The notes under the pieces were generated by a model. The model did not search any database, was not told the DNA's origin, and saw nothing but the letters and a program-made list of their open reading frames with translations. A stretch of 64,000 bases of DNA from Sulfurimonas sp. C5 (GTDB taxonomy: Bacteria; Campylobacterota; Campylobacteria; Campylobacterales; Sulfurimonadaceae), in the NCBI RefSeq assembly GCF_029872055.1, contig NZ_JARXNQ010000004.1:1-64000 (forward strand). Reading direction: 5' to 3'. The first letter of the stretch is position 1, and the number at the start of each line of letters is the position of its first letter. This document shows, one piece after another, positions 10,172 to 22,733 of the stretch. Both the position numbers and the translations under genes were made by a program.

Positions 10172-11053
10172 ATGAAACATTTTCTACTTTTTCTTATTTT
10201 CACGCTCAGCATATTTGCACATGATGCTTTAGTCTCTCCACAGTGGCTGGCTAATAATCTTCACAATAATAACATCCGTATTGTTGAAGTATCTGATGAG
10301 CAAAACTTTGAACTGCAACATATTAAAGGTGCCGTGCATACTTCGATCTCTCAATGGAGAATAAAGAACGGTACATATCTCACAATACGCTCTACAAAAG
10401 AGATTGAAGAAGAGATCCGTAAACTCGGTATAGACGCAGATAAACACGTAGTTCTCTATGCTCCGATAATCACTCCCAAAGACTATCTAAAAGCTACCTA
10501 TATATACTGGGCACTGAACTATTTTGGTGTAACAAAAGTTTCTGTACTTGACGGCGGTTTAAACAATTGGATTTCTCAAGGTTTTCCTACGACACAAGAA
10601 ACAAACAGTGTTCAAAAAACCGACTTTCATGCGAATATAGACAGTTCCAAAATTGCCAATCTAGATTATGTTAAAAGTCATTTAGGAAAAATTCCGATGC
10701 TTGACGCAAGACCGAGTGATAAATACCTTGGAATCACTCCAACGGCAACTGTTAAAAGGGATGGTCACATAGCAGGAGCCATGAGTTACTCTTGGAACTA
10801 TTCGGTTACAACAGACTATATACTTAAGTCAAAAAAAGAGCTCAATGCACTATTTAAAAACGGATATAAACTAAACAAAAATAAAGAGTTACTAGTCTAT
10901 TGTACAGGTGGACTTGAAACATCGTTCAACTACTTTGTCCTCTCAGGCGTGTTGGGTTATAAGCAAGTAAGACTTTACGATGCTTCTATGAAACAATGGG
11001 GTAATTTAGATAATACCCCTATGAACAAATACCGCTACGAAACTTTTGAATAA
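10172..11053 (+). CDS. Periplasmic sulfurtransferase with two rhodanese domains
   Basis: The 293-residue protein has a signal peptide (KHFLLFLIFTLSIFA) and two rhodanese folds, at about 18-140 and 160-285. Only the second has the active-site cysteine, C244 in VYCTGGLETS; the matching position of the first domain is in VLYAPIITPKD, without cysteine, as usual for tandem rhodaneses. It would move sulfane sulfur in the periplasm, for example thiosulfate or polysulfide sulfur, which suits a sulfur-oxidising lifestyle; the substrate is not shown by sequence. AAGGA precedes the start. Its end overlaps the convergent EAL gene by 19 bases. Confidence 0.88.
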   Translation: MKHFLLFLIFTLSIFAHDALVSPQWLANNLHNNNIRIVEVSDEQNFELQHIKGAVHTSISQWRIKNGTYLTIRSTKEIEEEIRKLGIDADKHVVLYAPIITPKDYLKATYIYWALNYFGVTKVSVLDGGLNNWISQGFPTTQETNSVQKTDFHANIDSSKIANLDYVKSHLGKIPMLDARPSDKYLGITPTATVKRDGHIAGAMSYSWNYSVTTDYILKSKKELNALFKNGYKLNKNKELLVYCTGGLETSFNYFVLSGVLGYKQVRLYDASMKQWGNLDNTPMNKYRYETFE

Positions 11054-11766
11054 TCTAAGTTCCACTTTTCTATAAAGTGGGCTTTAAAATAATACCCCTG
11101 TACAAAATCTACACCCAACTCTTTTGCGATCTCAAGATCAGAAGCATCCTCGATTCCCTCTAATAGACATAAACGTTTAGAGGCTTTTAAAAACTTTACA
11201 ATCCCTTTTGCCACCTCTATATATGCCGGATTTGTTCTAATTTTTTGAATTACGTCCATATCGAGCTTTATTGTATTTGCCCTATGAAACAAAGAGGTAA
11301 AAAACAGTGTATCTGGCTTTAGAAAATCATCATATGCGTATGTAATATCATGTTCATCCATCCAATCCATAAACTCTTCGATCAAGTAAAGATTTTCATT
11401 ATGTGAATTCTCAATGATTTCGATCTCTATATTTTTATGTGTCGTAAATAGTCTCATCCAATACTCTACATGGTCATTTTCTAAAACGACATGGGGATCT
11501 AAATTTAGAAACAGTCTGTGTCCTTTTGGTCTGTTATCGAGTTGAAAACGTTTTAAGATAGACTCAAAATGAAAAAATGTCTCACTGTTGTCATGAATAG
11601 CATTAAAAAACTCATTAGGAGGTATATATTTATCTTCATGACGAAATCTGCTTAAAGCTTCATACCCGTACACTTTCATCGTTTGAAGCTCTACTATAGG
11701 CTCATAACAAGCACCGTATGTTTCATCCACTATGATTGAAAGCGGTACACTTAAATTCAATTTCAT
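11035..11766 (-). CDS. Stand-alone EAL-domain cyclic-di-GMP phosphodiesterase
   Basis: The 243-residue protein is a single EAL domain with no membrane or sensor segment. The expected catalytic elements can be traced: E36 in YEALSRF, N in FLNLDP, E in EIEIIEN, the aspartate pair in YAYDDF, K in IKLDMD, E in LLEGIE and Q in VQGYYF. It is therefore probably active in hydrolysing c-di-GMP to pGpG, although the DDFG loop ends DDFL. GGAG lies before the ATG. Its upstream region has Fur-box-like palindromes (see 11775-11845), suggesting metal or redox control. Confidence 0.85.
   Translation of the reverse strand: MKLNLSVPLSIIVDETYGACYEPIVELQTMKVYGYEALSRFRHEDKYIPPNEFFNAIHDNSETFFHFESILKRFQLDNRPKGHRLFLNLDPHVVLENDHVEYWMRLFTTHKNIEIEIIENSHNENLYLIEEFMDWMDEHDITYAYDDFLKPDTLFFTSLFHRANTIKLDMDVIQKIRTNPAYIEVAKGIVKFLKASKRLCLLEGIEDASDLEIAKELGVDFVQGYYFKAHFIEKWNLDYSKVS
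11062..11080 (+). terminator. Weak stem-loop after the rhodanese gene
   Basis: CCACTTT and AAAGTGG form a 7-base stem with a 5-base loop just downstream of the rhodanese stop codon, followed by GCTTTAAAAT. It lies inside the 3' end of the convergent EAL gene, and the T-run is poor. Confidence 0.3.
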
Positions 11767-11774
11767 AAAAACTC

Positions 11775-11808
11775 CATTTTGATAACAAATATCAAAATGA
11801 TATCATTT
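11775..11808. promoter_or_regulatory. Two overlapping palindromes just upstream of the EAL gene
   Basis: CATTTTGATA (11775-11784) and TATCAAAATG (11790-11799) are perfect inverted repeats with a 5-base spacer. The right arm overlaps AAATGATATCATTT (11795-11808), a perfect 14-base palindrome. The core TGATAACAAATATCA (11780-11794) matches the Fur 7-1-7 pattern at 12 of 15 positions. The array lies between the predicted transcription start and the ribosome site of the EAL gene, where a repressor would block expression. Confidence 0.5.
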
Positions 11809-11823
11809 GAAACTTACATTTTT

Positions 11824-11829
11824 ATTATA
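11824..11829 (-). promoter_or_regulatory. -10 box of the EAL gene
   Basis: TATAAT reads on the minus strand about 58 bases upstream of the EAL start codon. The Fur-box-like sequence at 11831-11845 lies immediately upstream, within the -35/-10 spacer, and the palindromes at 11775-11808 lie downstream of the likely start site. Confidence 0.45.
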
Positions 11830-11830
11830 T

Positions 11831-11845
11831 TGATAATCAGTATCA
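11831..11845. promoter_or_regulatory. Fur-box-like operator in the EAL promoter
   Basis: TGATAATCAGTATCA is a 7-1-7 inverted repeat with one mismatch. Aligned to the classical 19-base Fur box, I count about 16 matching positions including the 5' flank. It overlaps the promoter spacer of the EAL gene. Binding by Fur is inferred, not shown. Confidence 0.5.
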
Positions 11846-11934
11846 TATTTATATTTACATTAAAGCAAACGACTATGTGTTTTTAGGTAAAAAGTTTGTT
11901 ATTGGAAAATTAGTTTTTCTGAAATTTATTAAGT

Positions 11935-12156: not shown

Positions 12157-12648
12157 ATGAAAAAAATTAAACAAGTAACTAAAATCATAGCATTAATGAT
12201 GATAGTATTAACTATGTCATTCGCTAATGATGTATCTAATCCTAAAAAAGAAAATGTACCCGGATATATGTATGATATATTTACTTGTACTCATATTGAT
12301 GGTATTACTTTAAAAAATGATAAAGTTGTCGACATCACTCAAGACAAACATTGGGATATATTTAAACTTACAATAACTCCTAAGTATTTTAAATGGAGAG
12401 AGCTTGAAGAATTCACAGACAACATTGATAAAAGTAATAGTCATTTTGAAAAATATTACACTAGGTTTGAAACTTTAGATAGAAAATATACACATACTTT
12501 TACTATGTATAAGTACAAAAATCAAGGGCTCTATTCAATGATTTCTAAGTTCAATGGTGAATTATTTATTAATACCTATGATTGTATTAAATCTACAGAA
12601 TTTCAACAACAAGATAAACAAGATTGGTATGACTCGGACAAAAGATAA
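12157..12648 (+). CDS. Orphan secreted protein in the tRNA-flanked mini-island
   Basis: I do not recognise this 163-residue protein. It has a clear signal peptide (residues 1-23, basic MKKIKQVTK then IIALMMIVLTMSFA). The mature part is rich in Lys, Asp, Tyr and Phe and has two cysteines, C44 in FTCTHID and C143 in TYDCIKS, which could form a disulfide. Its codons are very AT-rich. It is the first of two genes between tRNA-Asn 3'-end repeats, so it was probably acquired; the next gene starts 100 bases later. A periplasmic location is inferred. Confidence 0.65.
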   Translation: MKKIKQVTKIIALMMIVLTMSFANDVSNPKKENVPGYMYDIFTCTHIDGITLKNDKVVDITQDKHWDIFKLTITPKYFKWRELEEFTDNIDKSNSHFEKYYTRFETLDRKYTHTFTMYKYKNQGLYSMISKFNGELFINTYDCIKSTEFQQQDKQDWYDSDKR

Positions 12649-21046: not shown

Positions 21047-21442
21047 TCAATCGTTCTTTGTTACTATATAAAGCTGTTCATGCCCTAGTTTTTTCAAAAT
21101 ATCCATGACACTTACAAAGTCTTGAAAACGAGACTCTTTATCGCTTCTGAGAATAACTGTTTGTTTTTGAGAAACTTCTGCAAGTTTTGCTTCTAGAGCA
21201 GCAAGGTCAACTTTTTCTTTTTCAAAAAAAAGCTCCCCTTTTGCATTGACATATACGGTAACTTCCTTTTTTTCCTCTTTGTTATCTGAAGCAGAGGCTT
21301 TTGGAAGATTAACAGGGATCACACCTTGTTTGATGAATGTGGCCGTCGTGAGAACCATCACTAACAACACAAGCATAATATCGATAAACGGAATAACGTT
21401 TATCTGGTCAAATCTTTTTTGTGTTTTTCTACACTTTGACAT
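21047..21442 (-). CDS. exbD: ExbD/TolR family biopolymer transport protein
   Basis: The 131-residue protein has a basic cytoplasmic start, one membrane helix with the conserved aspartate (FDQINVIPFIDIMLVLLVMVL), and a periplasmic domain typical of ExbD/TolR. With ExbB it forms the proton-driven stator that energises TonB or Tol systems. I chose ATG 21442, one base after the exbB stop, over ATG 21475 inside exbB, because the family's conserved region starts soon after. No tonB gene is in the window. Confidence 0.88.
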   Translation of the reverse strand: MSKCRKTQKRFDQINVIPFIDIMLVLLVMVLTTATFIKQGVIPVNLPKASASDNKEEKKEVTVYVNAKGELFFEKEKVDLAALEAKLAEVSQKQTVILRSDKESRFQDFVSVMDILKKLGHEQLYIVTKND

Positions 21443-21443
21443 T

Positions 21444-21896
21444 TTACGACTTTTGCTTATCAGTGAAAATGTCATATTTTGTTAATATTTTTTCCACTTT
21501 TCTTAATGTGATCGTATAGGCAATAATAGCAGGAATAGCTACTATAAGTCCCATTGCTGTCGCTTTAAGTGCAAGAGCAAGTCCTGTCATGATTTTTTTT
21601 GCATCTACAGCACCTACATCACCCAGTGTATAAAATGTCAGCATAATTCCAAAAACTGTTCCTAATAGACCGACATAAGGAGCATTTGCCCCAATTGCAC
21701 TAATTACGTTAATGTTATTTGTAAGTTCTAATTCTAATTCATCTCTGTGACTATAATCTTCCATTCTGACAGTTTTATAAAACATCATTCTTTCTATGAA
21801 TAACCATACTGTCACGATACTCATAAGGATAAGAGTCCCCATTACCCCATAATCTATTGCTTGTTCGGCATATGCCATTAAACCTGTTAATTCCAT
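21444..21896 (-). CDS. exbB: ExbB/TolQ family proton channel
   Basis: The 150-residue protein has three membrane helices and the MotA/TolQ/ExbB core GANAPYVGLLGTVFGIMLTFYTLG, followed by ALKATAMGLIVAIPAIIAYT. It is the short ExbB form common in Campylobacterota. With ExbD it converts proton-motive force into motion for TonB-like partners. It begins 15 bases after the histidine kinase gene and is followed at once by exbD, an unusual operon setting. Confidence 0.9.
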   Translation of the reverse strand: MELTGLMAYAEQAIDYGVMGTLILMSIVTVWLFIERMMFYKTVRMEDYSHRDELELELTNNINVISAIGANAPYVGLLGTVFGIMLTFYTLGDVGAVDAKKIMTGLALALKATAMGLIVAIPAIIAYTITLRKVEKILTKYDIFTDKQKS

Positions 21897-21911: not shown

Positions 21912-22733
21912 TTAAAATTTTAAAGATACTTTTGTACCTTCATTGACTTCAGATGTAACACTCAGTTCTATCTTGTTTTCATCACAAAACCGCTTTACCA
22001 TTGAAAGCCCTATTCCAAAGCCCTGCATATGTTTATTTGTTTGATAAAAATTATCATAAATATGAAGCAGTTCTACCTCATCCATACCAATACCGTAATC
22101 TTGAATAGTGAGTATTTTATTATGTAGTTTTATATCGATATCTTGTGAATTTGGCGAATATTTTACACCATTATCAATTAAATTGTCAATTACTTTGGCA
22201 AGACCTACTTTATCTATTTCCAAAGAGAATGTTTCAAGTTGTAAATTAAAATTTATATGTGGATATATTCTTTGTAAAAAGACGATTCTATCTTCAAGCA
22301 GTTTTTTAAGATCACTTAACTCTTTAATATTTTGTTTAGACTGCATTTTAATAAGATAATCAAGCTCGTTATATCTTTGCTTTAACATCTCACAGGCTGA
22401 TTCGATCCTCTCAATGCGCTTTAATGCTTTTTCATCTTCTAGCTTCTTTTTGAGCATCTGTGTATTGGTTGTAATTGTACTTATTGGAAGATTGAGTTCA
22501 TGCAGTGTTTCTTTTGAAAGGTTTTGAAGATTTGTTACATACTCGGCTAATGGATCAATTGCAAGTTTTGAAATAAAAACACCTGATAAAATTATGATAC
22601 AAAGTAAAATAACACCGAAAATAAAGAGCTGTGAAACTCCCAATACATCTAAAAAGTAGTATGAAATTACCAAAAAAGCAATAACTGTAAGAAAATAAAA
22701 AATAAAGATGCTAATTCTTAAATTAACAAACAA
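21912..22733 (-). CDS. Two-component sensor histidine kinase
   Basis: The 273-residue membrane kinase has two helices near the N-terminus (about 6-27 and 37-57) with almost no periplasmic loop, so it probably senses a membrane or internal signal. The H-box is ETLHELNLPIST with H78. The N-box is VIDNLIDNGVKYSPN, and G-boxes DYGIGMDE and GFGIGLSMVK follow. It overlaps the response regulator gene by 11 bases, showing they are partners, and precedes exbB. The signal is unknown. Confidence 0.92.
   Translation of the reverse strand: MFVNLRISIFIFYFLTVIAFLVISYYFLDVLGVSQLFIFGVILLCIIILSGVFISKLAIDPLAEYVTNLQNLSKETLHELNLPISTITTNTQMLKKKLEDEKALKRIERIESACEMLKQRYNELDYLIKMQSKQNIKELSDLKKLLEDRIVFLQRIYPHINFNLQLETFSLEIDKVGLAKVIDNLIDNGVKYSPNSQDIDIKLHNKILTIQDYGIGMDEVELLHIYDNFYQTNKHMQGFGIGLSMVKRFCDENKIELSVTSEVNEGTKVSLKF

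Follow-up and report, generated by a model that had tools for sequence, protein, structure and literature searches.

A stand-alone EAL gene of Sulfurimonas with predicted Fur boxes at its promoter: a probable link between iron and c-di-GMP

Cyclic di-GMP acts as the bacterial "stay put" signal, and for most c-di-GMP enzymes the input signal is not known. Which signal governs the stand-alone EAL gene carried by a 64,000-nucleotide stretch of Sulfurimonas sp. C5 (contig NZ_JARXNQ010000004.1, positions 1 to 64,000; hereafter the window)? A preliminary description of this DNA reported an array of Fur-box-like palindromes around the promoter of the gene and proposed that iron controls it. On sequence grounds, Fur-type iron control of this promoter is supported by its match to a motif learned from feoA genes, by conservation of the boxes in three families, and by the iron genes that surround the orthologues. 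This EAL gene is likely to be a member of the Fur regulon and to be repressed by iron-loaded Fur; iron shortage would then lead to production of the EAL protein and, most likely, to c-di-GMP breakdown.

The features of the gene and of its promoter are collected in Table 1. The -10 element named in the preliminary description is present on the minus strand. The Fur-like 7-1-7 box announced upstream of it is also found, with the core TGATAATCAGTATCA (11831-11845) and a single mismatch to the 7-1-7 box TGATAATNATTATCA. This site, box A, has base 11829 in common with the -10 element, while the rest lies just upstream, in the -10/-35 spacer. The perfect 10-base inverted repeat was retrieved as described (arms 11775-11784 and 11790-11799) and mostly coincides with a second 7-1-7 box that is a new point, box B (core TGATAACAAATATCA, 11780-11794, two mismatches to the same 7-1-7 box). 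Box B is located downstream of the inferred start site and upstream of the ribosome-binding site, at a centre-to-centre distance of 51 bp from box A. If transcription starts about 7 bases past the -10 box, the leader would be about 50 nt long. The 14-base palindrome had also been described correctly, but by itself it stays within chance; it is possibly an extra Fur half-site, without significance alone. The divergent gene at 12157 starts more than 300 bp away, and a connection between it and the EAL promoter was therefore rejected.

Table 1. The EAL gene and the elements of its promoter region (window coordinates)
Feature	Position	Strand	Remarks
EAL gene	11035..11766	-	stand-alone EAL-domain protein, 243 aa, single EAL domain
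Fur box A (predicted), ATTGATAATCAGTATCATA	11829..11847	.	17.2 bits, feoA-derived PWM; third in genome scan
Fur box B (predicted), TTTGATAACAAATATCAAA	11778..11796	.	15.1 bits, feoA-derived PWM; first in genome scan
-10 box TATAAT	11824..11829	-	from sequence
14-bp palindrome AAATGATATCATTT	11795..11808	.	adjoins box B
Ribosome-binding site GGAG	11772..11775	-	5 nt before ATG; from sequence

A Fur motif built from iron genes had been set beforehand as the test of these sites. To keep it independent of the EAL promoter, the DNA upstream of feoA was taken from 29 loci of other Sulfurimonas genomes, and motif finding was performed de novo by palindrome-constrained EM, with no Fur consensus given. 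The resulting motif, AATGATAATaATTATCATT, is palindromic. A position weight matrix (PWM) was assembled from 18 distinct, clear feoA sites chosen by eye, leaving out weak A/T-rich EM matches, of which several fall at about -31 to -38, in feoA upstreams that have no real box. The feoA-derived motif matches both EAL sites, so that the outcome named beforehand as refuting, a differing Fur motif in the genome, did not occur. Over the window, boxes A and B, the best intergenic sites, come directly after a 17.5-bit site at 22040-22058, and all other positions score 10.7 bits or less. The same PWM gives 16.7 bits to the site of the genome's own feo operon and finds no site of at least 15 bits in 2 Mb of order-2 Markov sequence. 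The 17.5-bit site is located inside the 3' part of a sensor kinase-like gene (21912-22733), about 150 bp upstream of an exbB-like gene (21447-21896, minus strand) and an exbD-like gene (21050-21475, minus strand). A whole-genome search with a sequence-only model of the 18 sites, for which 150 of 3,120 first-look candidates were scored, puts box B in first and box A in third place, and its other matches include exbB, feo, ahpC and a perR-like gene. The E-values of the two boxes are weak (0.35-0.45), as they would be for any site of 19 bp, so the ranking is what carries weight. Simply counting mismatches to the 7-1-7 box is a weak test (40 sites, versus 32 for the reversed pattern) and was for this reason replaced by the PWM from independent promoters. 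Not every iron-type gene here has a box: at the genome's TonB receptor genes, none of the stretches scanned with the PWM contains a strong one. A 16.3-bit site is also observed at G000:C3:149863-149881 (L073), between recA and a divergent gene for 68 amino acids with a signal-peptide-like start.

Such arrays might be chance palindromes of AT-rich intergenic DNA, and the frequencies expected were obtained by simulating 20,000 promoters of 390 bp with matching dinucleotide composition. A 14-bp palindrome occurs in 10% of them, as a chance origin would have it, and is thus no evidence alone; a 10-bp inverted repeat (loop 0-10) occurs in 3.3%. One Fur-motif site of at least 15 bits is found in 0.17% of the simulated promoters, and two sites of at least 12 bits in 0 of 20,000, which places boxes A and B beyond chance. 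As the boxes are moreover kept across three families, a chance origin, already refuted for the Fur boxes, has a practically negligible probability.

The EAL family was found in 36 of 399 sampled genomes of the Campylobacterales, and in the tree its members group in a single clade, separate from the other EAL domains (support 100/99). A single-protein search of named genomes gave no match; an alignment search returned four Sulfurimonas loci and one distant match. Within Sulfurimonas, the upstream box is present in all eight intact orthologues (13.6-19.8 bits), and the two closest ones also possess twin boxes, 52 bp apart. In family f9, which we take to be the Arcobacteraceae, the EAL gene usually follows rpoB-rpoC and one small gene, a context unrelated to that of Sulfurimonas, and the box is found in 13 out of 13 cases at -44 to -53, with 9.3-20.1 bits; control upstreams of the same loci reach 9.4 bits at most (n=99). 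In family f20, presumably the Sulfurospirillaceae, the EAL gene usually lies behind a DUF2325 gene, and 10 of the 12 DUF2325-led operon leaders score at least 13 bits. High scores are also encountered in some control upstreams of families f1 and f20, those of f1 belonging to divergent genes that share the EAL box region or to iron-type neighbours. The degenerate member G124 (L160), in which the catalytic residues are not all kept, lacks the box too. The pairing of this EAL gene with a predicted Fur box recurs in relatives of three families.

Several copies of the gene are located in or beside iron-uptake loci. In genome G019, it is the last gene of an operon that also encodes an FTR1 permease, an imelysin-type protein, a di-haem oxidoreductase and a FUR-family regulator. 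It is found near TonB receptor and ABC transporter genes in G025 and divergent from feoAB in NORP9, while flavodoxin, feoAB, exbBD and tonB genes are nearby at other orthologue loci. The G019 gene (L091:83-805) contains an in-frame TAG on a draft contig, dividing it into 136 and 103 codons, which is either real or a sequencing error.

Because two predicted Fur boxes are present at the promoter and the pairing recurs in three families, iron shortage probably switches the EAL gene on. The genome encodes its own Fur (C1:783183), matching the C. jejuni Fur structures 6d57 and 4ets with 176 bits. When iron is plentiful, iron-loaded Fur bound to box A beside the -10 element and to box B in the leader would block RNA polymerase. 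When iron is short, Fur would leave the DNA and the EAL protein would be made; it would then most likely convert c-di-GMP to pGpG and lower its level, driving cells towards motility or dispersal. We infer in this scheme the choice of Fur rather than PerR, repression, phosphodiesterase activity despite the loop 6 discussed below, and the behavioural outcome. Fur boxes of repressed genes lie over the polymerase site, those of activated genes about 100 bp or more upstream (PMC3788343), and the position of box A against the -10 element therefore favours repression. Fur could conversely activate the gene, plentiful iron then lowering c-di-GMP, in line with the direct Fur activation reported for the EAL-encoding vieSAB operon of V. 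cholerae (PMC7641913). However, box A overlaps the -10 element by one base, box B is downstream of the inferred start, and both are far from where activator boxes stand; activation is very improbable.

PerR, which could bind the same boxes, is the main rival regulator; under its control, they would respond to iron and also to peroxide, and the breakdown of c-di-GMP would form part of an oxidative-stress response. A second FUR-family protein is indeed encoded in the genome, closest to structure 6dk4, which we take to be C. jejuni PerR. The PWM learned from feoA scores feo, perR and ahpC sites alike, the latter two at about 16 bits, but the half-site letters of the EAL boxes are closer to feo: TGATA...TATCA is found in both halves of both boxes, like in the feo sites. 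In the perR site ATATAATGATTATCA, by contrast, one half carries a T in place of the G, and the ahpC site has TTATCC at its end. Work on B. subtilis has reportedly distinguished PerR from Fur boxes at that half-site position. Considering also that the orthologues are found among iron-uptake genes, control by PerR is rather unlikely. Translation might instead be controlled by the inverted repeats, acting as an mRNA hairpin beside the ribosome-binding site with no protein on the DNA, as the leader folds better than its shuffled versions (z -2.3; for the G031 orthologue, z -2.7). Yet the fold is weak in the G281 orthologue (z -1.15), box A is outside the transcript, family f9 has a single box (at -44 to -53), and the feo motif is matched in sequence and not by symmetry alone, making this explanation extremely doubtful.

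Whether the putatively Fur-controlled product would break down c-di-GMP depends on the protein itself. Residues 19-227 match PF00563 (E=1.3e-30), and the predicted fold (pLDDT 90.7) has EAL domains as its closest solved structures, the best being Listeria Lmo0131 (PDB 4q6j; 53.5 bits by sequence, fold E 5.7e-16, ~24% identity). The metal and catalytic residues are kept (E36, N88, E116, E119, D146, D147, K167, E203 and Q223) and are invariant in 37 of 38 members of the family. Loop 6 is usually DFG(T/A)GYSS in active EAL domains (PMC2994820); it reads DDFLKPDTL here, does not conform to this consensus and is divergent across the whole family, whereas it is near canonical in Lmo0131 (DDFGKGYSS) and canonical or near-canonical in the paralogues. 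This loop has been described as relevant to EAL activity (PMC11537037), and its replacement is associated with changed or lost phosphodiesterase activity (PMC2994820, PMC11537037). With all catalytic residues kept but a divergent loop 6, hydrolysis of c-di-GMP by this protein is likely. In a less probable scenario, the gene would be controlled by Fur but its product would be no phosphodiesterase, binding c-di-GMP or acting on a partner protein: loop 6 is divergent in every member, and ToxR of P. aeruginosa, a stand-alone EAL protein of low-iron conditions, binds c-di-GMP without cleaving it (PMC9388670). Unlike in ToxR, the metal and catalytic residues are here invariant over deep divergence, which favours selection on catalysis and makes this scenario unlikely, though by no means negligible. 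With its complete catalytic set and divergent loop 6, the protein offers a clean case for learning to what extent activity requires this loop. As the genome holds about 20 other EAL-domain matches, the effect of a phosphodiesterase on total c-di-GMP may be small.

Fur of V. cholerae binds directly to promoters of c-di-GMP genes, activating vieSAB, which encodes the EAL protein VieA, and repressing cdgD (PMC7641913). The likeness to the present system resides in c-di-GMP metabolism genes under Fur, a control that is predicted here. In V. cholerae, vieSAB is activated, the effect is reported as iron-independent and VieA belongs to a multi-gene operon (PMC7641913), whereas here a single EAL gene has boxes placed for repression. 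The preliminary view that an iron-controlled stand-alone EAL protein is unusual can be retained, but the case is not unprecedented, Fur control of the V. cholerae EAL operon being known (PMC7641913). ToxR of P. aeruginosa, an inactive stand-alone EAL protein raised in low iron via PvdS (PMC9388670), resembles the Sulfurimonas protein in its stand-alone EAL architecture and in low-iron expression, which is presumed here. The two differ in that ToxR is catalytically dead and depends on the sigma factor PvdS, while here the predicted Fur box is on the gene itself and the catalytic residues are kept. A third parallel is provided by the C. jejuni DUF2325 gene cj1384c, which carries a Fur repression motif (PMC4491227) and, according to PMC9426514, is under Fur regulation. 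In family f20, homologues of this gene stand first in the EAL operon. To our knowledge, there is no EAL gene at the C. jejuni cj1384c locus.

In the open-access literature searched, we found no description of an EAL family controlled by iron in Campylobacterales, and a dedicated, conserved Fur-controlled family of stand-alone EAL proteins in this order appears to be undescribed. Promoter and neighbourhood point to iron as the input of an entire subfamily of EAL proteins, found in Campylobacterales that oxidise sulfur and in their relatives. The broader proposal, on which we are evenly divided, is that this stand-alone family, with its own loop-6 type and its presence in several families of the order, may link iron to c-di-GMP through Fur as a conserved exit switch under iron starvation. 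Iron as the input would tie iron supply, in a way open to direct testing, to whether cells attach or move.

The orthologue loci exhibit several other features. Directly after the EAL gene, G031 and G281 have two further Fur boxes (L087:5850-6010 and L129:8119-8260), placed before an 18-codon frame, MFEIENKKNIVKLSGKPC, which may represent a small peptide or a small RNA under Fur control. A short FUR-family protein of 107 amino acids (L087:6257-6580), in which the FUR domain match covers the N-terminal half only, adjoins an imelysin/di-haem peroxidase cluster. The proteins of cluster c5 (L144:11927-12370 and relatives), 148-270 amino acids long and with no Pfam match, are encoded beside flavodoxin genes, often with a Fur box; we assume that they are possibly related to C. 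jejuni Cj1383c. In G029 and G011, the gene immediately preceding the EAL gene (L090:4598-4759 and L089:5969-6130) encodes a protein of about 53 amino acids (...KLICPIVKIISMRHPYLTHDKI...), and a similar one belongs to the G019 iron cluster (L091 and L161; G019:C5:8312-8548).
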